This document shows positions 6,280-32,803 of a stretch of 64,000 nucleotides of DNA, piece after piece. The stretch comes from Actinomycetes bacterium (lineage in GTDB: Bacteria > Bacillota > Sulfobacillia > Sulfobacillales > JAIMBI01). The stretch covers positions 1 through 64,000 of the forward strand of contig JAIMBI010000011.1 in the NCBI GenBank assembly GCA_023565505.1. The letters run 5' to 3'. The position numbers and the translations under genes were made by a program. Position 1 is the stretch's first letter; each line of letters begins with the position of its first letter. The notes beneath the pieces were generated by a model. That model saw nothing but the letters and a program-made list of their open reading frames with translations. It searched no databases and was not told the DNA's origin.

Positions 6280-6283
<4 letters not shown>

Positions 6284-7155
6284 CGTCACGGGAGGGCCGG
6301 AACCGCAGTCGCCCCGCGTCGGACCGAGAGGGCGTGGGGGCTCGCCCGCCGCTGGCGGTCGGGTTGGAGACCGCCAAGAGCCCGGATCGCAGCCGGTACT
6401 TGGTACCGTCGCTGCAGTCGGCCGTCCGGATTCTCCAGTACCTCAGTCAGGCCCGACACCGGGAGTCCAACCTGACCCAAATCGCGCGGGACCTGGGGCT
6501 GAACCGGAGCACCGCCTATCGGATCGTCCTGACGCTCCAGTCGGCGGGCATGGTGGAGTACGACGACACCAGCCGCACCTACCGACTCGGCCCGGAACTG
6601 GCCGTGCTCGGGGCGCGGGCGATCACGCTGAACGAGTTCCTGCGGCGCGCCCAGGAGGTGGTCACGCAGGTCATGGAGCTGACCCGCGCGACCACGCTCC
6701 TCGTGCAGCGGATCGCGTTCGACAAGATGGCCTACGTCCTCAAGGCGACGCCGGAGGCCTCGCTCCACATCACGGCCAACGTGGGCCAGGTCTTCCCCAT
6801 CACGGCCGGCTCGCACGGCAAGGTGTTTCTGGCCTACATGGACCCCGAGGAGCGGGACACGATCCTGGCCAAGACGGGTTATCCCGCATACACCCCGTAT
6901 ACCATCCAGGGCCGTGAAAACCTCCTCGCCGAACTGGAACGCGTCAGGCAGGAAGGGATGGCCGTCAGCTGGCAGGAGCACGTCTTGGGGGTGGTCGGGG
7001 TGGCCGTGCCCATCTTCCGCACGGGAACCCAGCGGGTGGCGGCATGCCTCTCGGTCATCGCTCTGAGCGCGGCGGTGAGTCCGGACCAGGCCCGCGAATG
7101 GGGGCGGGCCATGCAGCACATCGTCCGGCAGGAACTGGTGGTCACGCCGAGCTGA
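6280..7155 (+). CDS. IclR-family transcriptional regulator
   Basis: A 291-residue protein with an N-terminal winged helix (VRILQYLSQA, LTQIARDLGLNRSTAYRIV around residues 45-85) and a C-terminal effector-binding domain (ITAGSHGKVFLAYM, then VVGVAVPIF). IclR proteins commonly control aromatic and alicyclic acid catabolism, and the gene sits inside the operon it probably controls, overlapping the ligase stop by ATGA. The N-terminal ~40 residues are an Arg/Gly-rich extension of unknown role. The effector may be a pathway acid or its CoA ester. Confidence 0.88.
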
Positions 7156-7190: not shown

Positions 7191-8087
7191 ATGGCGGACA
7201 CGCGGGCGACGAACGGCGGCCAGGACGCGATCGGCGTCGTCGGAGCCGGGACGATGGGATCGGGCATCGCGGTGGTGGCGCTGCGGGCCGGATTCCCCAC
7301 CTGGGTGTGCGAAACCGACGCGGAGAACCTGGACGCCGGGATCGGACGCATCCGGGCGTTTCTCGACGGAAGCGTCCGGCGCGGCAAAATCACGGCGGCC
7401 GAACGCGACGAGATGCTGACGCGGCTGCACGGCACGACGGTGCTGGAGGACCTCGCATCCTGCCGCTACGTCATCGAGGCGGTCTACGAGGACGTCGAGG
7501 TCAAGCGCGCCCTCTTCCGACGCCTGCACGCGGTAGCGGCGCCGGACGCCCTGTTCTTGACGAATACGTCGACCTTGTCCGTGACGTCCATTGCGGCGTC
7601 CACCGGTCACGAGGAACGGGTCGTCGGCATGCATTTCTGCAATCCGGCGCCGCTCATGGCGCTGGTCGAGATCAGCCCGGGACTCCGCACGAGTCCCGCG
7701 GCGTTGGAGGAAGCCCAGGCGCTTGCCGGCCGGTTGGGCAAGACGTACGTCGTGACCCACGACACGCCCGGATTCATCTTGAACTACTTCCTGATTCCCT
7801 TCGAGAACGATTGCATCCGGGCGCTCGAGGAAGGCCTAGCGAGCGTGGAGGACATCGATCGGGCCGTCAAACTCGGGCTCGGCTATCCCATGGGGACGTT
7901 CGAGCTGTTGGACACGGTCGGCCTGGACGTCCATTACGCGGTCTCGATGCGCCTGTACGAGCAGCTGCACGACCCGCGGTTCGCGCCGCCGCCGCTGGTG
8001 CGGCGGATGATCGACGCGAATCGGCTGGGGCGCAAGACCGGACACGGCTTCTATCGCTACGAAAAAGGGAGGGTCTTCGGTGCCTGA
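7191..8087 (+). CDS. 3-hydroxyacyl-CoA dehydrogenase (first copy)
   Basis: About 298 residues with the NAD-binding GAGTMGSGIA motif near residue 16, the conserved HFCNPAPLMALVEI segment carrying the catalytic His, and the C-terminal domain ending in RKTGHGFYRY. It oxidises L-3-hydroxyacyl-CoA to 3-oxoacyl-CoA with NAD. ATG 7191 has a GAAAGGAG site. It overlaps the next, paralogous gene by 8 bases. As a stand-alone short-form enzyme it would serve beta-oxidation of ring-opened dicarboxyl-CoA or the ring hydroxyacyl-CoA. Confidence 0.9.
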   Translation: MADTRATNGGQDAIGVVGAGTMGSGIAVVALRAGFPTWVCETDAENLDAGIGRIRAFLDGSVRRGKITAAERDEMLTRLHGTTVLEDLASCRYVIEAVYEDVEVKRALFRRLHAVAAPDALFLTNTSTLSVTSIAASTGHEERVVGMHFCNPAPLMALVEISPGLRTSPAALEEAQALAGRLGKTYVVTHDTPGFILNYFLIPFENDCIRALEEGLASVEDIDRAVKLGLGYPMGTFELLDTVGLDVHYAVSMRLYEQLHDPRFAPPPLVRRMIDANRLGRKTGHGFYRYEKGRVFGA

Positions 8088-8982
8088 GTCCGAAACCCGC
8101 AACACTTCCCGAACGACCTGGCTCGTCGGCGTCGTGGGTCTGGGAACCATGGGGAGCGGCATCGCCCAGGTGGCGGCCGCGGCGGGCTTCCCGGTCGTCG
8201 GCGTGGAGACGTCGCGGGAGCGCGCCGAGGCGGGGCATCGACGCATCGCGGCCTTCCTCGAGCGCGGGATGGCGCGGGGGCGGGGGACGCCGGAAGAACG
8301 CGACCGCATCCTGAGCGCGATCACGACCACCGATCGGCTGACGGATCTTCGGCGCGCGGACATTGTCATCGAAGCGATCTACGAGGATCTCGCGGCCAAA
8401 CAGGCGCTCTTTCGCGAGCTGGACGCCGTTCTGCCGCGGGAAGCCTTGTTGGCCACCAACACGTCCGGGTTGACGGTTCACGCCATAGCCGGACCCCTCC
8501 TGCGGGTCCGCCGGATCGTCGGCCTGCACTTCTTCAACCCGGCCCCGCTGATGCCGCTCGTGGAGGTGGTTCGGCCCGCCGGGGCGGATCCCGAGACGGT
8601 AGCGGAAGCCGTGGCCTTCTGCCGGGCCCTCGGCAAGGAACCCGTCGTGGTCAAGGATCGGCCGGGATTTCTGGTCAACCGCCTGTTGATTCCGTACCTG
8701 AATCAGGCGGCCGATGCTTATGACCACGGTCTGGCCAGCCGGGAGGACCTCGACACGGCGGTGGAATTGGGCTTGGGCTACCCGATGGGACCCCTGAAGC
8801 TCCTGGACCGCATCGGCCTGGACGTGCATCTGGCGGCGACCGAGGCCATCTACGCCCAGACGTACCGGCCGGAATTCCGCCCGCCCGCCATCCTGCGGGA
8901 ACTGGTAGCACGGGGGTCGACCGGCAAGAAGAGCGGCTCGGGATTCTACGCGTACGACGGTCCGCCCGCAGGCGAAGCCTGA
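8080..8982 (+). CDS. 3-hydroxyacyl-CoA dehydrogenase (second copy)
   Basis: A 300-residue paralogue of the preceding protein, with GLGTMGSGIAQ, HFFNPAPLMPLVEVV and a C-terminal KKSGSGFYAY. Start GTG 8080 lies within the end of the first copy, so the two are translationally coupled. Tandem, clearly diverged copies suggest two different hydroxyacyl-CoA substrates in the same pathway, or a hetero-oligomer. Both have the catalytic His region and the full C-terminal domain. Confidence 0.9.
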   Translation: MPESETRNTSRTTWLVGVVGLGTMGSGIAQVAAAAGFPVVGVETSRERAEAGHRRIAAFLERGMARGRGTPEERDRILSAITTTDRLTDLRRADIVIEAIYEDLAAKQALFRELDAVLPREALLATNTSGLTVHAIAGPLLRVRRIVGLHFFNPAPLMPLVEVVRPAGADPETVAEAVAFCRALGKEPVVVKDRPGFLVNRLLIPYLNQAADAYDHGLASREDLDTAVELGLGYPMGPLKLLDRIGLDVHLAATEAIYAQTYRPEFRPPAILRELVARGSTGKKSGSGFYAYDGPPAGEA

Positions 8983-9167
8983 CACCGTTGCGGGATGCGA
9001 GGGCCACCGCGCGTTCTGGGGCCCCTCCCGGGTGCGAGGTCCCCCGCCGGGGGATCCGGGGATGCCCGCCCCTTGGCGGTGGCGGGGGATGCCCTAGGGG
9101 GCTTCGTGCGGGGGCGACGCCGGCGGGTCGAGGGCGGCGACAGGAAAGACGGCAAAGGAGAATCCAC

Positions 9168-10385
9168 GTGGCTCCGCGACCGTTGTCGGGCTTGACGGTA
9201 GTCGATATATCCACATCGTATGCCGGGCCGTTCTGTTCCTTGATGCTGGCGGATCTGGGGGCCGACGTCATCAAGGTCGAGAAGCCCGGGGGCGACGATG
9301 CGCGGACCTGGGGGCCGCCGTTCATCGCGGGCGAATCGGCGTGGTTTCTCAGTGTCAACCGGAACAAGCGCAGCCTCTGTCTGGACTTCTCCGTGCCGGA
9401 AGGCCGGGCCATCCTGGACCGCATCCTGGCTCGGAGCGACGTCCTGGTCGAGAATCTGAAGCCCGGCTCGCTGGCGAAGTTCGGACTGGACTACGAGACC
9501 GTCCACGCCCGGCATCCCCACCTCGTCTATGCCGCCATCTCGGGGTTCGGGTTGACGGGTCCCGAGGCCCATCGCACGGGCTACGACCTCATCGCGCAGG
9601 CCCTCTCCGGACTGATGAGCGTGACCGGAGGTCCGGACGGTGAGCCGCAGCGGGTCGGGACCGCCTTGTCGGATATCGTGACGGGCATCGTGGCGGCCCT
9701 GGGGGTGACGGCGCTGTTGGTGGCCCGGGGACGCCACGGCGAGGGCGGGCTGGTGGACGCCAGTCTGTTGGACGTGGATGTGGCCCTGATGACCCCCCGG
9801 ATTGTGAGCTATCTGGCGTCGGGCGTGGTCCCGGTGCCGACGGGCGGGACCGATTCGGTGATCGCGCTGTACCAGAAGGTGCGCACAGCCGACGAACCCA
9901 TCGTGCTCGCGACGGGCACTCCGGTGCTGTGGGACCGGTTCAAAAAAGCCCTGGGTTCGCCGCCGAGCCTGGAACGGCCGGAGTACGCGACCAATGCGGG
10001 GCGGCAGACGCATCGGGCCGCCCTGGTGGACGAGGTGGAGCGGTTGCTCGCGCAGCACCCGGCCGCCTACTGGGTGGACCGCTTCCGGGCGTTCGGCGTG
10101 CCCTGCGCCCGCATCAACTACTTGGACGGGGTGGTGCGCGAAGCGCAGCTCCTCGCCCGGGACATGTTTCCCACGGTGTCCCATCCGGTCGCCGGGACGG
10201 TCAAGCTGGTCGGATCGCCGCTCCACCTGGACGGGAGCGCGTTGCCGATCCGGCGGCCGCCGCCGCTGTTGGGCCAGCATTCGGTTGAGGTACTTCAGGA
10301 GTGCGGGTTCGCCCGGGAGGAGATCGAAGGCTGGCTGGCGCGGGGGATCGTGTACCAGAACAATCGCCCCGAGCCGGCGTCCTGA
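9168..10385 (+). CDS. Class III CoA-transferase (CaiB/BaiF family)
   Basis: A 405-residue protein opening with LSGLTVVDISTSYAGPFCS and LADLGADVIKVEKPGGDDARTW, the hallmarks of the family, followed by NRNKRSLCLDFS and ARSDVLVENLKPGSLAKFGL. Such enzymes move CoA between acids through acyl-aspartyl and glutamyl anhydride intermediates. GTG 9168 is preceded by AAAGGAG at ideal spacing; the frame is open further upstream but without a better start. It may activate the substrate acid using CoA from an intermediate, in parallel to the ligase. Confidence 0.88.
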   Translation: MAPRPLSGLTVVDISTSYAGPFCSLMLADLGADVIKVEKPGGDDARTWGPPFIAGESAWFLSVNRNKRSLCLDFSVPEGRAILDRILARSDVLVENLKPGSLAKFGLDYETVHARHPHLVYAAISGFGLTGPEAHRTGYDLIAQALSGLMSVTGGPDGEPQRVGTALSDIVTGIVAALGVTALLVARGRHGEGGLVDASLLDVDVALMTPRIVSYLASGVVPVPTGGTDSVIALYQKVRTADEPIVLATGTPVLWDRFKKALGSPPSLERPEYATNAGRQTHRAALVDEVERLLAQHPAAYWVDRFRAFGVPCARINYLDGVVREAQLLARDMFPTVSHPVAGTVKLVGSPLHLDGSALPIRRPPPLLGQHSVEVLQECGFAREEIEGWLARGIVYQNNRPEPAS

Positions 10386-10436
10386 ACCCGCCGCGGCAAC
10401 GGCGGGAGGGCAGATGACGAGGAGGGTCGGAAGTCC

Positions 10437-11279
10437 GTGGCTGCGGAGTGGGTCGGGTGCGAAGACCACGGGGTCGTCCGGATCGTGCGCATCGAACGGC
10501 CGGACCGTCTGAACGCCCTGAACGAGGCGGTGCTGCAGGCCTTGGGAGAGGCCCTCGACGGGGCGGTCCGGGACGGCGTGCGCGCCCTCGTGGTGACGGG
10601 GGCCGGGGACCGGGCGTTCTCCGCCGGAGCCGATCTGGACGAGTGGGAGAACATCAGCTTCGCGGACGCTTACCGACGCCTGGAGCTCGGACAGCGTGTG
10701 TTCCAGCGTCTGGCGGCCGGGCCGATCCCGGCCGTCGCGGCGGTCAACGGTTATGCCTTGGGCGGCGGCATGGAACTGGCGCTCGCCTGTCACGTGCGGC
10801 TGGCGAGCCGCCGGGCGGCGTTCGGCCTCCCGGAGCCGCGACTGGGCATGATTCCGGGTTTCGGCGGCACGCAACGGCTGCCCCGCGTGGTTGGGTGGGG
10901 GCGCGCGGCCGAGATCCTCCTCACGGGCCGACGGGTGCCGGCCGAAGAGGCCTTGGCCATCGGCCTCGTCACGGCCGTCCACGAGGAAGACGCCCTGCTG
11001 CCGGAAGCCCTCGCCCTGGCGCAGCACATCGCCGAACAAAGCCCGGTCTCCTTACGCATGATCCTGACCGCGCTGTATGGGGGGAGCGACCTGCCGGTGG
11101 AACGCGGACTGCTGGTGGAGCGTCTGGTCGGCGCGGCGGCCGCCAGCAGTGCCGACCAACGCGAGGGCGTGGCGGCGTTCCGCGCCCGTCGGCCGCCGCG
11201 TTTCGGCCCGGCTGACGGTGCGGCGACGGATCCGAGCGGACAGGCCCAACCGTCGGGCGGGAAAGAAGGTGAGGGATAG
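10437..11279 (+). CDS. Enoyl-CoA hydratase/isomerase (BadK-like candidate)
   Basis: A 280-residue crotonase-fold protein. FSAGADLDEW supplies part of the oxyanion hole; GYALGGGMELALAC and FGLPEPRLGMIPGFGGTQRL carry the two Glu residues used for water addition. It hydrates 2-enoyl-CoA, and in this cluster could act on cyclohex-1-ene-1-carboxyl-CoA (BadK role) or on linear enoyl-CoA. The C-terminus has a Pro/Gly-rich tail of about 20 residues beyond the usual end. GTG start with GAGGAGGG. The next gene begins directly at its stop. Confidence 0.85.
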   Translation: MAAEWVGCEDHGVVRIVRIERPDRLNALNEAVLQALGEALDGAVRDGVRALVVTGAGDRAFSAGADLDEWENISFADAYRRLELGQRVFQRLAAGPIPAVAAVNGYALGGGMELALACHVRLASRRAAFGLPEPRLGMIPGFGGTQRLPRVVGWGRAAEILLTGRRVPAEEALAIGLVTAVHEEDALLPEALALAQHIAEQSPVSLRMILTALYGGSDLPVERGLLVERLVGAAAASSADQREGVAAFRARRPPRFGPADGAATDPSGQAQPSGGKEGEG

Positions 11280-12461
11280 GTGAACCCGGAATCGCTGACA
11301 CCCTTGGCGGATCTCGATCTGACGGACGAGGAGCGGATGGTCCGCGACGTCGTCCGCAAGGTTGTGGCCGCGGAAATCCAGCCCCGAGCCATCGAACTCG
11401 ACGAGACCGAAGGGTTCCCGTGGCCCCAGATGCAGGCCCTGAGCCGGCAGGGGCTGATGGGACTGCTGACGCCCGAAGCCGACGGCGGTCAGGGGGCCCG
11501 GCACCTCTTGTACGTGGCCGTCGTGGAGGAGATTGCCCGGGCCTGTGCGGCCACGGCCCTGGTCTACTTCACCAACACCCACGGACAACTCCCGCTGCTG
11601 TTCGCCGGGACGTCGGAACAAAAGCGGCGCTATCTGCCCCGGCTGGCGTCTGGCGAGTGGCTGGGCGCGATCGCGATTACGGAGCCGGACCACGGATCCG
11701 ACGTGGCCCATCTCCGGACGCGGGCCGAGCGCGTGGCCGGCGGCTATGTGTTGGACGGGGAAAAGATCTTTATCACGACTGGGGACAAGGCGGATTTGCT
11801 CACGGTGTTCGCCCGCACCGGGCCGGATCCCGGGGCGCGCGGCATCTCGGCGTTCCTGGTCGAGAAAGGCACCCCGGGGCTGGTGGTCGTCCGCACGGAG
11901 CGGAAGATGGGCGTGCGGGGCTCCAGCACGGCGGCGCTGCGGTTTGACCGCTGTTTTGTGGCCGAGGCGCAGCGGCTGGGCGAGGAGAACCAAGCGTTCC
12001 CTCTGCTCATGCGGGTCTTTGACGTCACACGGCTGAGCACGGCGGCGCAGGCAGTCGGCATCGCGCAGGGCGCGTACGACATCGCCCTCGCCTACAGTCT
12101 GGAACGGCGGCAGTTCGGCCAGCGCATCTACGACTTCCAGGCGGTGCAGTTCCGTTTGGCCAACATGCTGACCGAGATCACGGCGGGGCGCCTCCTGCTG
12201 TACCAGGCCGCGCGCCTGGCGGACCAGGGGCGGCGGTTTACGGCCGAGGCGTCCATGGCGAAGCTCTGGTGCTCCGAAATGGCCGGCCGCGTCACGAACG
12301 AGGCGGTGCAGACCCTGGGCGGCTACGGGTATATCCGGGACTACGGCGTCGAACGGATGATGCGCGACGCCAAAATCACCCAGATCTACGACGGCACGAA
12401 CGACATCCAGCGGCTCATCATCGCCCGGCAGGTGTTGGTGGCCGCCTCGGGAGGCAGCTGA
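11280..12461 (+). CDS. Acyl-CoA dehydrogenase with Asp at the usual catalytic Glu position
   Basis: A 393-residue FAD acyl-CoA dehydrogenase: ITEPDHGSDVAH and KIFITTGDKAD flavin motifs, RRQFGQRIYDFQAVQF, and GGYGYIRDYGVERMMRDAKITQIYDGTNDIQR. The catalytic base in most members is the Glu of IYEGT; here it reads IYDGT. An alicyclic acyl-CoA substrate (AliB-like) is plausible given the cluster. The GTG start immediately follows the hydratase stop, indicating coupling. FAD and electron-transfer flavoprotein would be the electron acceptors. Confidence 0.88.
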   Translation: MNPESLTPLADLDLTDEERMVRDVVRKVVAAEIQPRAIELDETEGFPWPQMQALSRQGLMGLLTPEADGGQGARHLLYVAVVEEIARACAATALVYFTNTHGQLPLLFAGTSEQKRRYLPRLASGEWLGAIAITEPDHGSDVAHLRTRAERVAGGYVLDGEKIFITTGDKADLLTVFARTGPDPGARGISAFLVEKGTPGLVVVRTERKMGVRGSSTAALRFDRCFVAEAQRLGEENQAFPLLMRVFDVTRLSTAAQAVGIAQGAYDIALAYSLERRQFGQRIYDFQAVQFRLANMLTEITAGRLLLYQAARLADQGRRFTAEASMAKLWCSEMAGRVTNEAVQTLGGYGYIRDYGVERMMRDAKITQIYDGTNDIQRLIIARQVLVAASGGS

Positions 12462-12524: not shown

Positions 12525-13484
12525 GTGGCCCTGACGACGCGTGTGACCCAAATCCTGGGCATCCGGTATCCGATTATCCAAGGGGGGCTGGCCCACATCG
12601 CCACCGGTGCCTTCGCGGCGGCGGTGTCCAACGCCGGGGCCCTGGGGCAGATCACGGCGACCTCGTTGGAGAATCCCGCCGATCTGCGCCGCGAGGTGGC
12701 GATGGCCCGTGAACGGACCTCTCGACCCTTCGGGATCAACCTGGCCATCGGCCATCGCCCGTTGGACCCGTTTCTCGACGTGGCTCTGGAGCTGCGCCCC
12801 GCCGCCATTTCCTTGACCGGCGGGAATCCGGCCCCGTTCATCCCCCGCATCAAAGCGGCGGGTATCACGGTGATGGTGCTGGTCGGGAGTGCCCGCCAGG
12901 CCATGAAGGCGGAGGAACTCGGAGCCGACATCGTCATCGCCGTCGGCTACGAGGGCGGCGGTCACCTCGGCCGGGACGATGTCGGCAGCCTGGTGCTGAC
13001 GCGGCGGGTGGTGGAATCGGTCCGCGTGCCGGTGGTGGCCTCGGGAGGGTTCGCCGACGGATACGGGTTGCTGGCCGCGCTGACGCTGGGCGCGGAGGGG
13101 GTCGAAATGGGGACCCGGTTCCTGGCTACGGAGGAGTGCCCGATCCACCCCCGCTACAAGGAAGCGCTGCTGCAAGCGGCGGAAAACCAGACGACCCTGA
13201 TCGGACGCAGCATCGGCGCACCGGGGCGGGTGTTGCCGGGGCGGTTGGTGGAGGAGATCCAGCGGCGCGAGCAGGCGGGGGCCACCCTGGACGAGTTGCT
13301 GCCGCTGATTGCCGGACATCGGAACCGGTTGGGGGCGCTGTCCGGCGACCTTGACGGCGGATACGTCTGGGCCGGGCAGGGCGTGGGGCTTATCCGGGAC
13401 GTCCCCACGGTCGCGGCCTTGGTGGAAAGGTTGGTCAGCGAGGCCCAGTCACGTTACGAGGATCTGCAGCGGGCATGGCAATGA
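12525..13484 (+). CDS. Nitronate monooxygenase / FabK-like flavoprotein
   Basis: A 319-residue FMN TIM-barrel protein. RYPIIQGGLAHIAT at the N-terminus and GYEGGGHLGRDDVGS (FMN phosphate region with the conserved His) are shared by nitronate monooxygenases and FabK enoyl-ACP reductases. EMGTRFLATEECP is also typical. In a CoA-ester catabolic operon it might act as an enoyl-CoA reductase, or detoxify nitronates; the sequence does not decide. GTG start; last gene before a hairpin and the next promoter. Confidence 0.8.
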   Translation: MALTTRVTQILGIRYPIIQGGLAHIATGAFAAAVSNAGALGQITATSLENPADLRREVAMARERTSRPFGINLAIGHRPLDPFLDVALELRPAAISLTGGNPAPFIPRIKAAGITVMVLVGSARQAMKAEELGADIVIAVGYEGGGHLGRDDVGSLVLTRRVVESVRVPVVASGGFADGYGLLAALTLGAEGVEMGTRFLATEECPIHPRYKEALLQAAENQTTLIGRSIGAPGRVLPGRLVEEIQRREQAGATLDELLPLIAGHRNRLGALSGDLDGGYVWAGQGVGLIRDVPTVAALVERLVSEAQSRYEDLQRAWQ

Positions 13485-13763: not shown

Positions 13764-14849
13764 ATGGAGCGTGCTTTAGAGGGCGTTCGCGTTCTGGACA
13801 TGACCCGGTTGTTCCCCGGAGGCTACTTGACGACGGTCCTGGCCCAACTGGGGGCCGAGGTGGTGAAGCTCGAGCCCCCGGGAGGCGATCCGGCTCGGGA
13901 GGAAGAGCCGCGCCGGCAAGGGGAGAGCTATTATCATTGGGCCATCAACCGGGGCAAGAAGAGCATCGTCATTGATTTGAAACAGGAGCCGGGACGGGAC
14001 GTCGTCTTGTCCCTGGTCCGGCAGGCGGACGTCTTCCTGGAAAACTTCCGCCCCGGAGTGGCCGAGCGTTTGGGCGTGGACGCCGAACGCTTGCGGCGCG
14101 TCAATCCTCAGCTGATCTACGTTTCGCTGAACGGCTTTCCGGAAGATGACCACCGCAGTGCGCGGGGGAGCCACGACTTGAACTATCTGGCCGACACGGG
14201 GGTCCTGGACCTGCTTGGGCCGGAGCACGGGGCCCCGGCGCTGCTTCTGAGCGACTTGGCCGGCTCGATGTGGGGCCTGGTGACCATTCTGAGCCTGCTT
14301 TACCAGCGCCGCGTCGCGGGTCACCCCGGACAACCCGCTCGGGTCGTCTTTGCCGAAGCCATCAGGCACTGGGCGGTGTTGCAGGACGCGCTGTTTCGCT
14401 TTGCCGGGGAAACCCGGTTCCCCATTCTGACATGGCCGTCGTATCACGTGTACCGCGCCGCCGACGGCGAGTACCTCGCGGTGGCCGCGTTGGAGCCGCA
14501 GTTCTGGGAACGGTTCTGCACCACGATGGGACGACCAGACTGGCTGTCTCGCCGGCGTGATCCCGCTTGGGTGCCGGTTGTCCAAGAGGTCATCGGCGGG
14601 CGGCCGAGTGCGTACTGGGAGGATCTGTTCGCCCCGGTCGACGCCTGTGTGACGGTGGTGCGGCGGTGGGCTGATGCCGCGCGCCGTCGGCCCGATCCGG
14701 ACCTGCCTCGCCCGAACCAGTGGCCGACCGCGGTGCCGGAGACCCTGGCGCCGCCAGGACTCGGCGAGCACACGGCCGAGCTGCTGGCCCGGGCGGGCTG
14801 GGATGCGGAGGGGCGTCGCCGGTTGCGCGAGACGGGGGCCGTGGGGTAG
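13764..14849 (+). CDS. Class III CoA-transferase (CaiB/BaiF family)
   Basis: A 361-residue protein starting ALEGVRVLDMTRLFPGGYLTT, with LAQLGAEVVKLEPPGGDPAR, NRGKKSIVIDL and ADVFLENFRPGVAERLG. It is somewhat shorter than the copy at 9168 and diverged from it. ATG 13764 has GAAGGGATCGG upstream and lies 43 bases after the predicted transcription start; the GTG at 13731 would fall inside the operator. It opens the second operon, six bases before an acyl-CoA dehydrogenase. It may transfer CoA to a pathway acid, or act as a racemase-type family member. Confidence 0.85.
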   Translation: MERALEGVRVLDMTRLFPGGYLTTVLAQLGAEVVKLEPPGGDPAREEEPRRQGESYYHWAINRGKKSIVIDLKQEPGRDVVLSLVRQADVFLENFRPGVAERLGVDAERLRRVNPQLIYVSLNGFPEDDHRSARGSHDLNYLADTGVLDLLGPEHGAPALLLSDLAGSMWGLVTILSLLYQRRVAGHPGQPARVVFAEAIRHWAVLQDALFRFAGETRFPILTWPSYHVYRAADGEYLAVAALEPQFWERFCTTMGRPDWLSRRRDPAWVPVVQEVIGGRPSAYWEDLFAPVDACVTVVRRWADAARRRPDPDLPRPNQWPTAVPETLAPPGLGEHTAELLARAGWDAEGRRRLRETGAVG

Positions 14850-14854: not shown

Positions 14855-16018
14855 ATGGCAGACATGGTCGATGTGACCGTCGTGGAGGCTGTCCGGCAGC
14901 TGGTGAAATCTGCAATCGCGCCGCGGGCGTCGATGATTGAGCGCGAGGATCAATTCCCCCACGACGTGCTGCAGGCCTATCGGGCGGCGGGTCTGCTCAC
15001 GCTGGCGTTCGACGAGGAGGCGAGAGGGGTCGGGGCGACACTGCCGACCATGTGCGCGGTCATCAGGGAGATCGCGCGAACGTCGCCGGCCTGCGCGACG
15101 ATTCTGCTGGGCCATACGACCGCCTGTCTGGCCATGCGCATGGCGGGGGCCGCCGGGGCGCTCGAAGCCGTGGCGAAGCAGTTCCCCAACCGGCCGGCGT
15201 TCCTGGGGATCTGCATCACGGAGCCCGAATCCGGGTCCGATGTGGCCTCCATTCGGACCGCCGCCGACCCGGACGGCGCGGGGTGGATTCTCCGCGGACA
15301 GAAACGGTTCGTCACCAACGGCCCCGAGGCGGACGCCTTCGTCGTGTTGGCCCGAACCGCCCCCCGGGACCAGGAGCTCCACCACCTGAGTCTCTTCCTC
15401 GTCGACCGGCGGGCCGAGGGGGTGTCGGTGGGCCGTCCGGAGAGGAAGCTCGGGTTGCGGGGATCCTCCACGGCCGACGTGACGTTCACCGACGTCCGGG
15501 TTCCGCCCCATCACCTGATCGGCGAAGCCGGGAGCGGGTTCGGTTACGTGATGAAGACGCTGGACCGCACGCGCACGATCGTGGCGGCATTGGCGGTCGG
15601 CATCGCCGAAGGCGCCTTGGACCAGGCCGTCCGGTACAGTCAGGTCCGCAAGCAGTTCGGACGCCCGATCGGGGAGTTCCAGGGAATCCGCTTCGCGCTC
15701 GCCGACATGGCGGCGCGGGTGGCGGCGGCCGCGGCCCTCACCCGGGAGGCCGCCGAAGCCGTGGAAGGACAGGTCCCCACCGCGTCGCTGTTCGCGTCGA
15801 TGGCCAAGTTGTGCGCGACGGAAACGGCCAGTCGGGTCGCGGCGGATGCCGTCCAGGTCCTCGGGGGTTACGGGGTCATGGCCGACTACGGCGTGGAGCG
15901 GTTCATGCGCGATGCCAAGGTCACGGAGATTTACGAGGGCACCAACCAGATCCAGCGCGTGATCATCGCGCGCGAACTGATGGCACTGGTGGCCGAGGGA
16001 ACCGCGGTCGCCTTTTAG
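14855..16018 (+). CDS. Acyl-CoA dehydrogenase
   Basis: A 387-residue FAD enzyme with ITEPESGSDVASIR, KRFVTNGPEAD, RKQFGRPIGEFQGIRF and MRDAKVTEIYEGTNQIQR. Unlike the copy at 11280, it retains the canonical catalytic Glu. ATG 14855 follows a TAGGAGGC site that overlaps the preceding stop. Immediately upstream of the BadI-like gene, it could dehydrogenate the cyclic acyl-CoA (AliB role) or pimeloyl-CoA after ring opening (PimC/PimD role). Confidence 0.9.
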   Translation: MADMVDVTVVEAVRQLVKSAIAPRASMIEREDQFPHDVLQAYRAAGLLTLAFDEEARGVGATLPTMCAVIREIARTSPACATILLGHTTACLAMRMAGAAGALEAVAKQFPNRPAFLGICITEPESGSDVASIRTAADPDGAGWILRGQKRFVTNGPEADAFVVLARTAPRDQELHHLSLFLVDRRAEGVSVGRPERKLGLRGSSTADVTFTDVRVPPHHLIGEAGSGFGYVMKTLDRTRTIVAALAVGIAEGALDQAVRYSQVRKQFGRPIGEFQGIRFALADMAARVAAAAALTREAAEAVEGQVPTASLFASMAKLCATETASRVAADAVQVLGGYGVMADYGVERFMRDAKVTEIYEGTNQIQRVIIARELMALVAEGTAVAF

Positions 16019-16042: not shown

Positions 16043-16897
16043 ATGGATCTGCGGGAGATTGTTTACGAAAAGTACAACCAGCGAGCCAAGATCACGATCA
16101 ACCGGCCGCATAAACTGAACGCCCTGACGCCGCGCACCCTGGCCGAGATGCTGTGGGCCTTGGAAGACGCGTGGGCGGACGACGACGTCGGGGCGGTGAT
16201 TCTAACGGGAGCGGGCGATCGGGCCTTCTGTGTCGGCGGTGACCAGTCCATTCGGGAGAAGGGCGGTTACACCTACGACGACGTCGGCGACGGTCCCCTG
16301 GCGCGGATGCCGCTGCCGACGCTGCACTCGCTGCTCCTTCAGACCATTCGCAACATCCCCAAGCCGGTCGTGGCCATGGTGAACGGCTACGCCATCGGGG
16401 GAGGCCATGTGTTGCACGTGGTGTGCGACCTGACGGTGGCGAGCGAGACGGCACGGTTCGGTCAAGTGGGACCGAGAGTCGGAAGCTTTGACGCCGGCTA
16501 CGGTTCGGCGTATTTGGCCCGGGTCGTGGGCGAGAAGAAGGCGCGGGAAATCTGGTTCCTCTGTGAACAATATTCCGCCCAGGAAGCCTTGGAAATGGGC
16601 CTCGTGAACTGGGTCGTCCCGCCGCAACGCCTTGTCGAGAAGACGGAAGCGGTGTGTGACGCCCTCATCGCCAAGAGCCCGACCGCCCTGGCGGCGCTGA
16701 AGGCCTCGTTCAACGCCGACAGCGACTCCGTCTGGGGCATCCACCAAGTCGCCGGGGTGGCCCTGAACCTTTATTACGGCACCGACGAGGCGTTGGAGGG
16801 ACGGAACGCGTTCCTGGAAAAGCGGGCGCCCAACTTCCGGGCGGCCAGGCGTTCCCGGACGCAAGAGCAGAAGTCAGGAGGGAACGACGATGTTTGA
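16043..16897 (+). CDS. badI: BadI-like 2-ketocyclohexanecarboxyl-CoA hydrolase (MenB-type crotonase)
   Basis: A 284-residue crotonase-superfamily protein of the MenB branch. [47 protein letters not shown] and [14 protein letters not shown] match the pattern remembered for Rhodopseudomonas BadI, which hydrolytically opens 2-oxocyclohexanecarboxyl-CoA to pimeloyl-CoA. MenB (naphthoate synthase) is the main alternative, but there are no menaquinone genes nearby and a BadH-like gene overlaps its end by 8 bases. Residues near the end ([19 protein letters not shown]) are an unusual polar tail. Start ATG 16043 follows GAGGAGGGG. Confidence 0.75.
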
Positions 16898-17636
16898 GTT
16901 GACGGGCAAGATTGCCCTGGTGACGGGGGCGGCCCAGGGGATCGGGCGCGGGATCAGCGAGGCGCTGGCCCGCCAGGGGGCGACTGTCGTCCTGGCCGAC
17001 ATTCAGGAAGAGAAGGCGGCCGAGGCCGCGCGCGAAATCGGCGGCAACGCCTGGGCCGTCCGGGTGGACGTCACGGACTCGGCCAGCGTGCGCTCGATGG
17101 TCGACGCCGTCCAGCGACGGCACAACCGGCTGGACATCGTGGTCAACAACGCTGGATGGGACCGTATCGCCCCGTTTCTGGAATTCGACGAGGCGGAATG
17201 GGACAAGGTCCTGCGGATCAATCTCTACGGACCGCTGTACGTGCTGAAGGCCGCCCTGCCCTTGATGGTGGCCCAGCAGTCGGGGTCGGTCGTCAACATC
17301 GGCTCCGATGCCGGTCGGGTGGGATCCAGCGGCGAGGCCGTGTATTCCGCGGCGAAGGGCGGCGTGATTGCCATCACGAAAACCCTGGCGCGCGAGCTCG
17401 CGCGGTACGGGATCACCGTCAATGCCGTCTGTCCCGGCCCGGCCGACACGCCGCTATTTGCGGAGGTCCGGCGCCAGAATCCGCGGTTGGCCGAGGCCCT
17501 GGTGCGGGCGATCCCGCTGCGGCGGTTGGCGCGTCCCAGCGACATCGCTGCCGCCGTGGCGTTCCTGGTGTCCGACGAGGCGTCGTACATCACCGGGCAG
17601 ACCCTGAGCGTGAGCGGCGGCCTCACCATGGTCTGA
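16890..17636 (+). CDS. badH: BadH-like 2-hydroxycyclohexanecarboxyl-CoA dehydrogenase (SDR)
   Basis: A 248-residue [40 protein letters not shown] (with Ser/Tyr/Lys catalytic residues) and a terminal [10 protein letters not shown]. The NNAGWD, SDA[11 protein letters not shown], VCPGPADT and SGGLTM signatures are those of BadH rather than of generic FabG. It would oxidise 2-hydroxycyclohexanecarboxyl-CoA to the 2-oxo compound that BadI cleaves. Its ATG is inside the end of the BadI-like gene, so the pair is translationally coupled. Confidence 0.78.
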
Positions 17637-17686
17637 GCCGGCGGACGGGCGTACGGCGGGTGGCTTGATCCGGGAGGACGGTTGCG

Positions 17687-19405
17687 ATGCTTCGACCGAG
17701 TGCCTTCAGGTTTGAACAGATCAAGCGATCCCAGGCCCTGGGAGGACGCCACCTGGACGTCGTGCAATGGGACCTCCTCGCCCGGAACGCCAGGCTGTAC
17801 GGCGGGCGGGAAGCCCTGGTCGACATGCTCCACGGCGACGCACGATCGCTGTGGCGCCGGCGCACGTGGGCGGAGGCCTACCATGAGGTCAATACCCTGA
17901 TTTTCAACTTGCTGGACCGCGGCATGCGCCGCGGAGGACTGGTCGTCTCGCATCTCCCCAATTGTCTGGAGAGCATCTACCTTGACTGGGCCACCTCGAA
18001 GCTGGGCGCCATGCATTGCGGGCTGAACGTGGACCTCGGGCCGGCAGAGACGTTGGGAGTGCTGGAAAAGGTCCAACCGGACGTGGCAATCATTGTCGCC
18101 GAGTGGCACGGACGCGATCTGGCGGGTTGGTACCGCCGGGCTCGAGAGAAATTGCCCGGCATGGACGTCTACGTCGTCGCGACGGGCCGAACCGGGGGTG
18201 GCGTCGACGACATGGCCTCCGCCGACGAACTCTTCGACGAGGCCGTGTGGAACCGGTACGACGAGCGCGACCTGAACTACCTGCGGACCGATCCGCTCAG
18301 CGTACACGAACTCCTGCCTACAGCGGGGACGACCAGCATCCCGAAGATCTCGTGCCGTACGTCGCTGGACTGGTTGCACGTCCATGGGCACGCGGTCGCC
18401 GAACGGGCGGGTCACACCGTCTACGACACCCGCCTGGTCATCGGTCCGGTGGCCGGCGGATCGGGTCGCGTCTGGGCCGTGCACACGCCGCTCATCACCG
18501 GGGGCCGTACGCTGCTGCCGTTGGAGTTCGACGAGGCCCAGGTCTGTCGCCTGACGGAAGAGGAAGGGGTCACCCTTTGGGTCTGGAATCCGGCGTTGAT
18601 CACCCGGGTCGTCACCTCGCCGGCCTTCGAGGCCCACCGGCTGCCGAGTCTCCGGCAGGTGGCGTCGTCGGGGGCCCCGATGCCCGAGCAGGTGACCGCT
18701 CGTCTGATGGAACGGGGAATCGTGCCGTTCAACTTGTACGGCACGTCCGAGGTGGGCGGCTGCATGTGCCCCATCCTGCCGGGCGTGAGGGAGGAGCACC
18801 TGCGGCAGGGGGCCGGCGTGCCCCTCGAGGGATACGACGTCGTCGTCGTGGGGGCCGATGGACAGCCCCTCCCGCCCGGGGAGGTGGGGGAGATCCTCAT
18901 CTGGAACATCCACCACGGCTACTTCGACGCCCCGGACGAGACGGCTTTGGCGTTCGGCGACACCGAGTACGGCGGCCGTTGGGAGGGCTACCAGCACACC
19001 GGCGACCTCGGCGTCTACGACGAGCACGGGTACCTCCGCGTCGTGGGGCGGAAGAAGGACATGATCCTGCGCGGCGGCCAGAACATCTTCCCCAAGGAGA
19101 TCGAGGACGTGCTGAGCCAGCACCCGATGGTGCGGGACATCGCCATCGTGGCGATGCCGGATCCCGTGCTGGGGGAGCGGGCGTGCGCCTTCGTGGTGCC
19201 CCGGGAGGGCGCCCGGCCCACGGTGGAAGACTTCGCGGCCTTCCTCGAGGCCCGGGGCGTGGCGAAGTTCAAGTGGCCGGAACGGGTGGAACTCCTCGAC
19301 GCGATGCCGCTGGGACCGGGAGGGAAGATCCTCAAGGCGGAGCTGAGGGCGCGGATCGCCGCGAAGCTGCGGGCGACCGAACCGGAGCCACCGGCTGTGC
19401 GATAG
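17687..19405 (+). CDS. Second acyl-CoA ligase with an altered P-loop
   Basis: A 572-residue ANL-superfamily ligase. The phosphate-binding loop reads PTAGTTSIPKIS instead of the usual TSGTTGxPKG, keeping the Lys; NLYGTSEVGG, HTGDLGVYDEHGYLRVVGRKKDMILRGG (split motifs A7/A8) and LGPGGKILKAEL with the adenylating Lys are intact. It probably activates an aromatic or alicyclic acid (2,3-dihydroxybenzoate-AMP-ligase-like branch). ATG 17687 follows GGGAGGACGG. Two ligases in one cluster suggest different entry substrates. Confidence 0.82.
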   Translation: MLRPSAFRFEQIKRSQALGGRHLDVVQWDLLARNARLYGGREALVDMLHGDARSLWRRRTWAEAYHEVNTLIFNLLDRGMRRGGLVVSHLPNCLESIYLDWATSKLGAMHCGLNVDLGPAETLGVLEKVQPDVAIIVAEWHGRDLAGWYRRAREKLPGMDVYVVATGRTGGGVDDMASADELFDEAVWNRYDERDLNYLRTDPLSVHELLPTAGTTSIPKISCRTSLDWLHVHGHAVAERAGHTVYDTRLVIGPVAGGSGRVWAVHTPLITGGRTLLPLEFDEAQVCRLTEEEGVTLWVWNPALITRVVTSPAFEAHRLPSLRQVASSGAPMPEQVTARLMERGIVPFNLYGTSEVGGCMCPILPGVREEHLRQGAGVPLEGYDVVVVGADGQPLPPGEVGEILIWNIHHGYFDAPDETALAFGDTEYGGRWEGYQHTGDLGVYDEHGYLRVVGRKKDMILRGGQNIFPKEIEDVLSQHPMVRDIAIVAMPDPVLGERACAFVVPREGARPTVEDFAAFLEARGVAKFKWPERVELLDAMPLGPGGKILKAELRARIAAKLRATEPEPPAVR

Positions 19406-19541: not shown

Positions 19542-20867
19542 ATGAGCGGTGCCGCAACCGTCGCCGCGGGCCAGGAGCGCAGTCCGGAAGGGATCAGGAG
19601 AACGGTGTGGGGCGCCTTCTGGAGCCTCCTCATCGACATGTACGACATCTACCTGCCCGTCGTCGCGCTGGCTCCGGCCATCGTCTACTTCGAACCGAAG
19701 AACCTGCCGGCATCGACCACCGCTACGCTGTTCTATCTCGTCTTCGCGGCCACGTTGGTCGGGCGCCCGCTGGGGGCGTTCATCTTCGGCCACCTCGGTG
19801 ATCGCTGGGGCCGCAAGGTCACCACGATGATCGCCATCAGCGGGTTCGGGATCGCCACGCTGCTCATCGCCTTGCTGCCCGGCTACCAGCAGTGGGGCCT
19901 GGCGGCGATGTACGTCCTCACGCTGTTGCGGTTCATCGACGGCATCTTTCTCGGCGGGCAGTACACCGCCGCCATCCCGCTGGCCATGGAGTATGCGCCC
20001 AAGGCGAAGCGGGGCCTGTACGGCGGCGCCATCCAGTCGGCGTTCCCGCTGGCCTACGTGCTGATCTCGCTGTTCACGTCGCTGGTGTTCGTCTTCTCGC
20101 CGCCGGGGACCGCGAGTGCGCCGTACGTCCAGTGGGGTTGGCGGATTCCGTTCCTTGTCGGGGCCCTGGGGTCGGCCATCGTGGTGTGGTTCTACAGCCG
20201 CTCCGTGCCGGAGTCCGAGTTGTGGCGTCAGAGTCCCAAGACCCGGTCGCCGCTGCGGGAACTCTTCTCCGGTGAGAGTTTCCGGAATCTGGCGCAGGTG
20301 TTCATCCTGCAGTCGGGGGCCTGGTTTCTGGTCAACTCCGTGATCAGCACGCTCCCGGCCGTGCTCATCACCGTCCTGAAGCTGCCGTCCGTCACGGTGA
20401 CGCACGAGTTGCTCATCGCCTACGTCGTGTTGGCGGCCGGTTTCGTCACCGCCGGGGCCGTGAGTCAGATCGTCGGCCGGCGCCGGCTGTACGCCATCAT
20501 GGGGCTGCTCAGCGCGGTCGTGGCGCCGGTCTTGTACTACCTGATCGTGGCGACGCCCAAGGTCGGGTTCGGGGCCCAGACGGTCCTGGCCAGCGTGCTG
20601 CTGCTCATCACCATCGGGATGTGGGGCATGGTGGTGTCCTACATCAGCGAACGCTTCCGGACCTCGGTCCGCTCGGCCGGATACGGTATCGGTTACAGTC
20701 TGGCGGTGATCATCCCGTCGTTCTACTCGTTCTACATGCTGGGATTGGCGCACTTCATGCCCTACGCCTACACCCAGATCGTGCTGGTGGTCATCGGCGG
20801 TATCCTGGTCCTGGTGGGCGCGCTGATGGGCCCGGAGACCAAGGACATCGACTTCGTGGCGGACTGA
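19542..20867 (+). CDS. MFS transporter, metabolite:H+ symporter (MHS) type
   Basis: A 441-residue membrane protein with about 12 predicted helices. GHLGDRWGRKVTTM is the MFS signature between helices 2 and 3; GWRIPFLVGALGS and RFIDGIFLGGQYTAAIPLAMEYAPKAKRG are typical of MHS-family carriers for carboxylates. It probably imports the acid degraded by the cluster. Start ATG 19542 has GGGAGGAGCGG. A strong hairpin lies 20 bases beyond its stop. Confidence 0.87.
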   Translation: MSGAATVAAGQERSPEGIRRTVWGAFWSLLIDMYDIYLPVVALAPAIVYFEPKNLPASTTATLFYLVFAATLVGRPLGAFIFGHLGDRWGRKVTTMIAISGFGIATLLIALLPGYQQWGLAAMYVLTLLRFIDGIFLGGQYTAAIPLAMEYAPKAKRGLYGGAIQSAFPLAYVLISLFTSLVFVFSPPGTASAPYVQWGWRIPFLVGALGSAIVVWFYSRSVPESELWRQSPKTRSPLRELFSGESFRNLAQVFILQSGAWFLVNSVISTLPAVLITVLKLPSVTVTHELLIAYVVLAAGFVTAGAVSQIVGRRRLYAIMGLLSAVVAPVLYYLIVATPKVGFGAQTVLASVLLLITIGMWGMVVSYISERFRTSVRSAGYGIGYSLAVIIPSFYSFYMLGLAHFMPYAYTQIVLVVIGGILVLVGALMGPETKDIDFVAD

Positions 20868-20887
20868 GCCGACGCGTCTCGGGGAAC

Positions 20888-20917
20888 GGGCGCGGAGGGA
20901 GCCGGTCCCTCCCGCCC
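20888..20917 (+). terminator. Hairpin at the end of the catabolic cluster
   Basis: GGGCG-C-GGAGGGA (20888-20900) pairs with TCCCTCC-CGCCC (20906-20917) around a five-base loop, with one bulged C. It lies 20 bases after the transporter stop. No U-tract follows, so strength is uncertain. Confidence 0.45.
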
Positions 20918-20994
20918 GTGGTCCGGGCCGGGACAGCGTGCCTCCGGGGCGAGAGACGGACCCTACGACGCGAGGCCAAAAGGGGTGGAGCGAC

Positions 20995-21786
20995 ATGGTG
21001 GAGATATCGCCGTTGCGTACAGGCGCGGACGTGCGGGCGGCCGCCCGGGCGGGGGAGTTGACCGGGGTCACGGCGGGACTGGCCCCCGGATATGTGCAGG
21101 CCAATCTGGTGATGATGCCGGCAGCCTATGCGCTGGAGTTCCTCGCTTTCTGCATCCGCAATCCGAAGCCGTGCCCCGTGCTCGAGGTCTGCGAGCCCGG
21201 TGATCCGGAACCGCGGCGGTTGGCGCCCGGTGCGGACCTGCGGACCGACCTGCCGGCCTACCGGGTGTACCGGGACGGCCGCCTGGTCGAGCGCCGGACC
21301 GACGTCACCGAGCTTTGGACGGACGACATGGTGTCCATCCTCATCGGGTGCAGCTTCACGTTCGAGTGGGCCCTCAGCCAGCACGGGATTCGACTGGCCC
21401 ACATCGAGCAAGGCCGGAACGTCTCGATGTACATCACCAACCGGGAGTGCGTCCCCGCCGGGCGGTTTCACGGGCCGATGGTCGTGAGCATGCGTCCGTT
21501 TCCGCCGGATGTCGTCCCCCAGGTGGCCGCCATCACCGAACGGTTTCCGGGCATGCACGGGGCCCCCGTATGGATCGGCGACCCCAAGGGTCTGGGGATC
21601 GAGGACCTCGGGCGTCCCGACTTCGGGGACGTGCTGGACTTCGGCCCCGGTGACGTCCCGGTGTTCTGGGCCTGCGGGGTGACCCCCCAGGCGGTGGCTC
21701 TGGCCTCCGGCGTCCCGTTGATGATCACCCACGATCCCGGACACATGTTCGTCACGGACGCGCCCCACGCGGCCTACCAGGTCTGA
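20995..21786 (+). CDS. DUF1445 family protein (putative hydro-lyase, D-glutamate cyclase-like)
   Basis: A 263-residue protein matching the DUF1445/YcsI family: LAPGYVQANLVMMPAAYA near the N-terminus, DMVSILIGCSFTFEWAL, and PVFWACGVTPQAVAL with a terminal ITHDPGHMFVTD. Length is normal. One eukaryotic relative is a D-glutamate cyclase; bacterial members are mostly uncharacterised. ATG 20995 follows AAAAGGGGTGGAG. It lies between the transporter and the TetR gene, so it may belong to acid metabolism, but no reaction can be assigned. Confidence 0.8.
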   Translation: MVEISPLRTGADVRAAARAGELTGVTAGLAPGYVQANLVMMPAAYALEFLAFCIRNPKPCPVLEVCEPGDPEPRRLAPGADLRTDLPAYRVYRDGRLVERRTDVTELWTDDMVSILIGCSFTFEWALSQHGIRLAHIEQGRNVSMYITNRECVPAGRFHGPMVVSMRPFPPDVVPQVAAITERFPGMHGAPVWIGDPKGLGIEDLGRPDFGDVLDFGPGDVPVFWACGVTPQAVALASGVPLMITHDPGHMFVTDAPHAAYQV

Positions 21787-22299
21787 CACCGATTCGAGCG
21801 GCCGTGGAGGCCGCAGCGCATGGCGTGGTGGGGGGCGGCGACGCGCCCGTGGTGGACGGGGAAGACGCGCACGCGTTACCCCGACATCATCGGAGGGATC
21901 CTGGAGGCGCAGAGGGCAGGCGAGGTGGGAACGCGCCGGCGGAGGCCTGCTGGAGCACGTCGTACACCGGACAACCCTGTTAATCAACGTGCCGGCAAAG
22001 CGGCGGGGCGTCCGGGTGTGCTCGTCAGCACCCGTGGTTTCCGCGACCTTGGCGAGACCGGGCGGATCAACCGGCCTGACGCCCTCAACTTCCGCTTCCG
22101 CAAACACGAACCGGTCGTGCCGCGTCGGGACCGGATCGAGGTGCGGGAGCGTTGTCTATGGGACGGGAGGAAGGCGCCCCGGCGACGGGGAAGTCCGGCG
22201 GTGGGTTCGGGCGTTCAGGGCGCTGCGGGGATCGTCCCGGAGCGCCCCGCCGCCCGGCAGGCCGAGACCACGGAGGCCATGGGAGGCGAGGACCTGGTC
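21787..22299. other. 513-base gap before the TetR gene
   Basis: The frame of the TetR gene is open through much of this region, but the translated sequence is Arg/Pro-rich without motifs and no ribosome binding site supports an upstream start. No clear promoter or RNA structure was recognised. Confidence 0.5.
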
Positions 22300-22926
22300 A
22301 TGACAGCCAATGATAGCCCGGTAGCACAAATCAAGTCCCGGATCGACGCCCCGACGCTGTTGGCTTGGCGCCGCCGGCAGCTGGTGGAGGCCGCCACGGC
22401 GCTGTTCGACGAACGAGGGTTCGCGGGAACCCGTCTGGAAGACATCGCCGCGCGGGTGGGTCTGTCCTCGGGGGCCTTGTACCGCTACATCGGGCGCAAG
22501 GAGGATCTGCTGCTTCTCATCCTGGACGACCTGTTCAAGGCGTACGAGCGCGCGCTGGCGGTGGATCCCGGCGATTGTCTCCGCCGGCTCAAAGAGGCCA
22601 TCAGCCGCTACTATACCGTGGTCCACACGGAGCAGCGGAAGGTGTTGGTCGGCTACCGCGAGTCCAAGCACCTGCAGCCCACGGAGCGCGAGTGGGCGAA
22701 GCAGCGGGAGCTCGCGACGAACCTGGGGTTCCAGCAGATCATCGCGGAGGGGATCGCTGCCGGGGTGTTCCGGGACGGCGATCCATCCGTTGCCGCCTTC
22801 AGCATCGTGATGGGTGCCCACATGTGGGCACTCAAGAACTGGTACTTCCGGGAGCGGTGGACCATCGAGGCGTACATCGCCGCCCAGACGGATTTGCTCC
22901 TGGAGGGATTGGTCCGCCGTGCGTGA
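22300..22926 (+). CDS. TetR-family transcriptional regulator
   Basis: A 208-residue TetR protein. The N-terminal helix-turn-helix covers RRQLVEAATALFDERGFAG and LEDIAARVGLSSGALYRYIG (residues ~25-65); the C-terminal half (YRESKHLQPTEREWAK) resembles the ligand-binding domain of acyl-CoA responsive regulators of the FadR/PaaR kind. ATG 22300 is chosen because GGAGGCGAGG ends nine bases upstream. Likely ligands are CoA esters from the neighbouring pathways. Confidence 0.87.
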   Translation: MTANDSPVAQIKSRIDAPTLLAWRRRQLVEAATALFDERGFAGTRLEDIAARVGLSSGALYRYIGRKEDLLLLILDDLFKAYERALAVDPGDCLRRLKEAISRYYTVVHTEQRKVLVGYRESKHLQPTEREWAKQRELATNLGFQQIIAEGIAAGVFRDGDPSVAAFSIVMGAHMWALKNWYFRERWTIEAYIAAQTDLLLEGLVRRA

Positions 22927-23164
22927 GCTGTCGACCGGCAGCCGGGTCGCATGCGGTGGGTCGGCCGCGGACCTGGTCGGGGAGGTCCTCTTCTGGTCCC
23001 CTGTCGGTCGGCCAGTGGGTGGTGGACACGGGCGGCGGTCCTGAGGGCCTTTCCGTCGCATCCGGTCGGTCGGGTTGGCCCCGCGGCATGTGCGGCCGCG
23101 GGCGGCCGGACATGCCGGATCGGCTCACCATCGTGAACGCGTCGCCAAAGGGGGCGGCATCGCC

Positions 23165-24565: not shown

Positions 24566-24634
24566 GCGGGCGGGGCGAGGGCCTCCGTCGGCCGGCGATT
24601 GTCCGGCGAGGTTTTGCGGCGAGGAGGGATCACC

Positions 24635-25582: not shown

Positions 25583-25830
25583 CGAGGGACCGGAAGGGAC
25601 CACAGACCGGCACCTCTGCGACAGCCGGGACGACGCGGGCCGCAGCGGGGGATCCCGCCGCGGGGACTCCGAGCGTCGGGCAAGGGCGCCCGACCCGCCT
25701 GCGGAATCCGGTCGGGAGGGGCGACCGGGGTCCGCCGTCCACCGGGCTTCACGGGACGCCGGGCGTGGGCCCCGATGGGCTCGGCCAGGGCACGGTCCGG
25801 GGTTCTAACGCGCTAGAGGGGAGCAGCACG
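25583..25830. other. Intergenic region with hairpin
   Basis: A 248-base gap between aldolase and iron dehydrogenase contains a perfect 7-bp hairpin at 25675-25694 (GTCGGGC, six-base loop, GCCCGAC). No gene or clear promoter is seen. Confidence 0.35.
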
Positions 25831-26973: not shown

Positions 26974-27099
26974 GCCGGTTGGTCCCGCCCGCCGGCCGAG
27001 CGCCGCGGCGGGTGCCGGCGCGGCGTCGGGCGAGGGGCCTCGCGGTGCGGAGGCCGTGTGGGCGGCGGGCAAGCAGGCAGGCGGAAGGGAGCGACAAGT

Positions 27100-28005: not shown

Positions 28006-28200
28006 GCGGAGCCGGTCCGCCGGCGGCCGGGCGAACAGCCGGCGCTCCGGACCAGGCCGAGCCGGGGGACCGGGGTGGGGAACCTCAAGGCCGACGGCCG
28101 GGGCGGGGACCCGACCTGCCCCGGCAGGAGGCCGGGCGCGAGACGGCGAACCCCGGTCGTGCGGGACGATGCGCGGTCGGAAAGGAGTGGGTTCCCCCAG

Positions 28201-29160: not shown

Positions 29161-29164
29161 CCGT

Positions 29165-29179
29165 GCCCCGGCCTGGGGC
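29165..29179. terminator. Small hairpin between convergent genes
   Basis: GCCCC-GGCCT-GGGGC forms a 5-bp stem just after the dehydrogenase stop and between convergent genes. It may serve as a weak bidirectional terminator; there is no U-tract. Confidence 0.25.
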
Positions 29180-29230
29180 CTTGCGCCCGCCCGCGGCCGT
29201 CTCGTCCTCTCCGCGTGGACGCCTCTGGGG

Positions 29231-30265: not shown

Positions 30266-30414
30266 CGCTGTCTCGCCACCGATTCCAGGATTTCGCCCTT
30301 CCCCCGCGTTCATCCTGCTGCCCGTCCGCCTGCGGTCGGCGGGGGACCCCGGTTCGGGGGAGGAGTGAAAAACGACGCGGGCCACCGGGTCCGACCGTCG
30401 AGGAGGGAGAGCCG

Positions 30415-32785: not shown

Positions 32786-32803
32786 GCGCGAGGGCGCGGA
32801 CCG

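Follow-up and report, generated by a model that had tools for sequence, protein, structure and literature searches.

On the forward strand of the window, the whole stretch of 64,000 nucleotides that we analysed, an open reading frame at positions 11280-12461 encodes an acyl-CoA dehydrogenase (ACAD) of 393 residues that starts with a GTG codon, and that we call ACAD1. The sequence ITQIYDGTNDIQR is found near its C-terminal end, with an aspartate, Asp371 (codon GAC, 12390-12392), at the position usually held by the catalytic glutamate. In the alignment of its base-motif stretch, DAKITQIYDGTNDIQR, all 30 close homologues have Glu in the column of Asp371. An earlier sequence-only reading had proposed that Asp replaces the catalytic Glu in this protein, and the reading frame, the codon and the alignment confirm it. 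The preceding residue, Tyr370 (TAC, 12387-12389), is shared with the second dehydrogenase of the cluster, ACAD2, and is replaced by Gly in AliB-like enzymes.

In other respects the protein looks like an ordinary member of its superfamily. The AlphaFold model (pLDDT 92.3, pTM 0.93) predicts a complete three-domain ACAD fold, and its best fold match is rat SCAD (1jqi; Z 57.8, rmsd 1.3 over 383 residues). T134, E135, G139, D141, R251 and G372 are invariant in a 28-row alignment, and ACAD1 carries the FAD-binding TEP..GSD stretch, the conserved substrate arginine (Arg251) and a carboxylate base, here Asp371, in the loop that precedes the last helix. ACAD1 has Thr250 at the alternative base site, just ahead of the conserved Arg251, so that of the two base sites only that of Asp371 is occupied by an acid. 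The best sequence matches are also short-chain enzymes, 2dvl (352 bits) and 5lnx (MmgC, 346 bits), but these two and 1jqi have Glu where ACAD1 has Asp.

ACAD1 lies in a cluster of genes that are all encoded on the forward strand. Upstream are an IclR-type regulator (6283-7155, start codon provisional), two 3-hydroxyacyl-CoA dehydrogenases (7191-8087, start codon inferred, and 8080-8982), a family III CoA-transferase (9186-10385, start codon provisional) and an enoyl-CoA hydratase (10437-11279). Downstream are a nitronate monooxygenase or FabK-like flavoprotein (12525-13484), a second family III CoA-transferase (13764-14849, start codon provisional), ACAD2 (14855-16018), a MenB/BadI-like crotonase (16043-16897), a BadH-like short-chain dehydrogenase (16890-17636), an acyl-CoA ligase (17687-19405) and a major facilitator transporter (19542-20867). 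ACAD2 had been described as a sister enzyme that keeps the Glu. It does read IYEGT, but it is only 43% identical to ACAD1, and is therefore a neighbour rather than a close paralogue.

Part of this cluster is conserved in a metagenome-assembled genome of Sulfobacillus acidophilus, AMDSBA3. The two hydroxyacyl-CoA dehydrogenases, the first CoA-transferase, the hydratase, ACAD1 and the flavoprotein are found there in the same order, the first five with identities of 70, 58, 68, 58 and 70%, the flavoprotein with matching pieces of about 52-74%. The flavoprotein orthologue (L112, 2539-3451) appears as three separate match pieces and may be broken or misassembled. The AMDSBA3 block also contains, in between, a crotonase and a pair of genes resembling glutaconate CoA-transferase. 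This pair matches the structures of glutaconate CoA-transferase or of the 5mzw group better than 6con and 6co6, which we take to be the steroid-ring enzyme IpdAB, and we do not claim a steroid-type ring hydrolase. No close homologues of the BadI-like and BadH-like proteins or of the ligase occur on the AMDSBA3 contig (best identities of 43, 38 and 31% over all but 1,366 of its 118,866 bases). The block of ACAD1 is thus separable from them, and its link with the alicyclic module may be local to the genome of the window. Further matches to the window's regulator, short-chain dehydrogenase, crotonases, ACAD, CoA-transferase and ligase are found at about 20000-35200 of G031:C52 (L160), also in AMDSBA3.

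The syntenic AMDSBA3 orthologue of ACAD1 (L009) also has Asp at the base position, and its flanking Tyr and Gly use other codons than in ACAD1. Its Asp rules out a sequencing or binning slip as the source of the substitution. Beyond this pair, the residue is rare. Of 398 genomes in the phylum, only that of the window itself matched a DNA pattern for DAK[IVL][TIM][QE]IYDGT, while the Glu version of the pattern had 75 matches, spread over 46 of 101 genomes; such patterns are blind to Asp in a different motif context, such as the IGDGT of AliB. When either residue was allowed, 24 places matched in 44 genomes that had been traced through homologous loci, and only one of these places has Asp, the AMDSBA3 gene. 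Among 61 relatives the Asp version occurs in two, and outside the window's genome it amounts to a single gene, that of AMDSBA3, whose contig is present twice (G031:C52 and G436:C52). The genome of the window has Asp in three of its 27 aligned ACAD-like proteins: ACAD1, an AliB-like protein encoded on contig 40, and a protein encoded on the reverse strand of the window (61117-62328) that reads LADGPDEVH at the base column and that, by this motif, we suspect to be ACAD10/11-like. Among 102 homologues from outside this genome, the base column holds Glu in 63, Gly in 37 and Asp in one (the AMDSBA3 orthologue), and one lacks the column. Gly at this column is reported for long-chain and isovaleryl-CoA dehydrogenases in PMC11659651. 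In the genomes searched, Asp is hence rare in the nearest kin rather than common among linear-chain orthologues of the clade. The variant of ACAD1 is an uncommon one shared with one close relative, but, given the known enzymes that also have Asp there, not a new kind of chemistry.

The substitution does not come alone. ACAD1 and its AMDSBA3 orthologue share 34 residues that are absent from 30 close Glu-type homologues, counting only columns conserved in 85% or more of these homologues, and nine of these differences fall within residues 91-103 (11550-11588), including Tyr96, Phe97, Asn99, Thr100, His101 and Gln103. Such a concentration within 13 residues was reached in none of 20,000 random placements, a test that takes no account of substrate-pocket positions varying more than others. 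These residues belong to a predicted helix (90-109) which, judging from medium-chain ACAD structures, we take to line the acyl pocket. We read the changes as a sign of an altered substrate, and a pocket reworked in this way would probably accept something unlike the short linear acyl-CoAs used by related enzymes.

Could the aspartate nonetheless be the product of neutral drift, tolerated in an ordinary linear short-chain ACAD and without consequence for substrate or chemistry? The change from Glu to Asp takes a single base, the rest of the catalytic motif of ACAD1 is standard, Tyr370 included, and the block around it consists of generic beta-oxidation enzymes. However, the residue has been kept in an orthologue that is only 70% identical while the close homologues uniformly hold Glu, the motif occurs in this setting in one genome of the 398, and the clustered changes in the pocket accompany it. 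We consider drift unlikely.

The same pocket residues can be read in another way. Four polar residues of ACAD1, Asn99, Thr100, His101 and Gln103, correspond to Gln, His, Leu and Ala in close homologues, and His101 with its neighbours might bind the far carboxylate of a ring-opened, dicarboxylic acyl-CoA of the pimelyl-CoA type, released by the BadI-like enzyme. The two hydroxyacyl-CoA dehydrogenases and the CoA-transferase next to ACAD1 would suit such a substrate, and the best model for the CoA-transferase is that of succinate-glutarate CoA-transferase, at 309 bits and below the cut-off of 750. Yet the models of pimeloyl-CoA dehydrogenase match ACAD1 weakly, with 77 and 115 bits against cut-offs of 624 and 653, and we regard a substrate of this type as a tentative and somewhat doubtful alternative.

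His101 (11580-11582) also bears on the position of the double bond. The sequence-only reading had supposed that ACAD1 might place the double bond of a ring elsewhere than ACAD2 does. The structure 7p98 is 47% identical to ACAD1 and has the same fold (Z 56.4 with the ACAD1 model), and like ACAD1 it has a polar residue in place of the Leu found in all 30 close homologues of ACAD1. But in 7p98 this residue is Asp91, presumably the base for 1,4-chemistry, and the usual base site is Thr, whereas ACAD1 combines His101 with Asp371. Tyr370 is informative too: enzymes for alpha-branched or ring substrates have smaller residues before the base, according to PMC11659651, and the Tyr kept in ACAD1 speaks against a ring at the alpha carbon. 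With His at the column of Asp91 and Tyr370 retained, the supposition was not supported. A ring double bond elsewhere than alpha,beta has no direct support and seems very improbable, and His101 is the sole feature that leaves room for it.

An aspartate base is by no means foreign to the family. Alicyclic acyl-CoA dehydrogenases with a changed base had been invoked from the outset, and they do exist. With the AliB model, TIGR03207, a search of the order around G449 (249 genomes) found hits at E <= 1e-140 in 12 genomes, two of them above the curated cut-off; in 61 relatives it gave five weaker copies at E <= 1e-90 and none above the cut-off. The 15 AliB-like copies with a readable base column, out of 17 (L135 and L139 are uncounted), all carry IGDGT; two of them are above the family cut-off, and one is the copy on contig 40 of the genome of the window. 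The row of L126 in our alignment shows Glu, its best locus match being another ACAD, but its AliB-like copy has IGDGT and is counted as Asp. From these sequences, Asp appears to mark the AliB-like group. We noticed no Asp base for AliB in the literature that we found, although it may be published. Elsewhere in the family, a catalytic Asp whose mutation abolishes activity is described for ACAD10 and ACAD11 in PMC11342911 and PMC12440821, and the title of PDB entry 2r0m names a Glu370Asp variant of glutaryl-CoA dehydrogenase whose structure was solved. Asp can therefore act as an ACAD base, and it is an already known solution for ring acids and 4-hydroxy acids.

ACAD1 is nonetheless distinct from each of these groups. 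Asp371 matches the base column of ACAD10, ACAD11 and LvaC, the 4-phosphoacyl-CoA enzymes that also have Asp for the catalytic Glu, and by analogy with the mutated enzymes of PMC12440821 and PMC11342911 it would serve as the base. These enzymes, however, have an HCMR motif after the conserved Arg, while ACAD1 has LSTAAQ after Arg251, with Thr254 and Gln257 at the positions of the His and the Arg in a register that we infer from the residue numbers in PMC12440821. No kinase family was matched by Pfam among the cluster genes scanned. With AliB, ACAD1 shares the Asp and the gene company (BadH-like, BadI-like and CoA-ligase types), but it reads IYDGT and not IGDGT, Tyr370 standing in place of the Gly, and it reaches only 218 bits with TIGR03207 against a cut-off of 575. 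With NF043006 (cyclohexane-1-carbonyl-CoA dehydrogenase) it reaches 354.6 bits against a cut-off of 650. The search with that model in 398 genomes of the phylum at E <= 1e-140 gave no match and is uninformative, given that the control was silent as well. Scores and key residues together rule out membership of ACAD1 in AliB, in NF043006 or in the 1,4-dehydrogenating family.

The phylogeny tells a similar story, with less certainty as to origins. We built a quick tree of 54 rows, hand-picked from 148 aligned, and a careful tree with 38 of these, from which four long-branch rows and 12 others had been dropped. In the careful tree, ACAD1 and its AMDSBA3 orthologue form a clade with full support (100/100), the AliB clade is equally well supported (100/100) and apart from it, and the ACAD1 clade joins, weakly (82/70), a Glu-type group that includes ACAD2. 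The two Asp clades are apart in the quick tree too, where the placement of ACAD1 is an open fork and Asp must have been gained or lost at least three times. Joining the two clades into one is not rejected by the AU test (p 0.356), so a separate origin of the Asp of ACAD1 is the likelier reading of the sequences rather than an established one; the direction of the change would be from Glu to Asp.

The neighbourhood may give a context to the substrate. On contig 40 (L122, G000:C40:90000-109000; 7514-12172), the same genome has a set of bad/ali-like genes with BadI-like, BadH-like and AliB-like (IGDGT) enzymes and a ligase, and the window's module (16043-19405) is made of paralogues of these: 60% identical for the BadI-like protein, 77% for the BadH-like one and 74% for the ligase. 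Judging from the sequences, these neighbours suggest alicyclic-acid catabolism, and the window would then hold a second alicyclic-acid module, with either ACAD2 or ACAD1 taking the role of AliB. What counts against an alicyclic reading is that none of the three proteins reaches its bad/ali family cut-off: the BadI-like one scores 310 bits with TIGR03210 (cut-off 467.6), the BadH-like one 290 with TIGR03206 (431.2), and the ligase 221 with TIGR03208 (792.3). Moreover, the BadI-like protein just passes the cut-off for menB, with 344.0 bits against 342.7 for TIGR01929. Three genes of this genome pass it, on contig 46 (435 bits), on contig 40 (364) and in the window (344), and we took the homologue on contig 46 as the quinone enzyme.

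Within such a module, ACAD1 could itself be the functional AliB of the cluster, having gained its Asp separately, and convert a saturated ring acyl-CoA to cyclohex-1-ene-carboxyl-CoA or a substituted analogue, with ACAD2 acting later in beta-oxidation. The constant Asp of the readable AliB-like copies points that way, as does the AliB-like gene that stands between the short-chain dehydrogenase and the ligase on contig 40 and has no counterpart in the window's module, and the separation of the two clades in both trees agrees with a gain of its own. But it is ACAD2, not ACAD1, that is directly upstream of the BadI-like gene, Tyr370 is at odds with the Gly of AliB, and the AU test leaves room for one origin of both Asp clades. 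We deem this role improbable.

Other observations concern the window as a whole. Its G+C content is 0.67-0.70 in positions 1-24000 and 0.72-0.75 in 24001-64000, and the catabolic genes in the first of these regions mostly have a lower third-position G+C. Near the low end there are a match to an IS605-type helix-turn-helix (in 168-2069) and a PIN-domain gene (2528-2935). The first 24 kb are possibly an acquired stretch. In a plasmid search, 256 of 256 records were under 60% identity. A FAD_binding_2 oxidoreductase at 23075-24565 appears split into two reading frames, 23075-23395 and 23414-24565, which are in one frame with a stop between them and both match FAD_binding_2.

Taken together, the reading that we prefer, with a probability of about 0.62, is that ACAD1 catalyses an alpha,beta-dehydrogenation with Asp371 as its base and with a remodelled pocket, on a substrate that probably differs from the short linear acyl-CoAs taken by related enzymes, and that we infer to be ring-derived or branched. 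Sequence, clade and synteny are established by the data and the fold by prediction, while the role of Asp371 follows by analogy with other Asp-base enzymes. From its canonical position on the loop, Asp371 would take the alpha proton while the beta hydride passes to FAD; the base would be one methylene shorter than Glu, and the reaction otherwise ordinary. The change is common to a clade of two members, and goes together with the reworked pocket at residues 91-103, His101 included, in an enzyme that belongs to a conserved beta-oxidation block and that here adjoins what may be a second bad/ali-like alicyclic module.

Asp takes the place of the catalytic Glu in several groups of ACADs, namely the AliB-like enzymes, ACAD10/11 and the clade of ACAD1, and calling these enzymes active by the Glu alone would miss working ones. 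Two of the Asp groups are found near gene types associated with ring degradation, which raises the question of whether Asp suits bulky or ring substrates. If a ring bond at an unusual position proved true after all, ACAD1 would give nature a second way to carry out unusual ring dehydrogenations.
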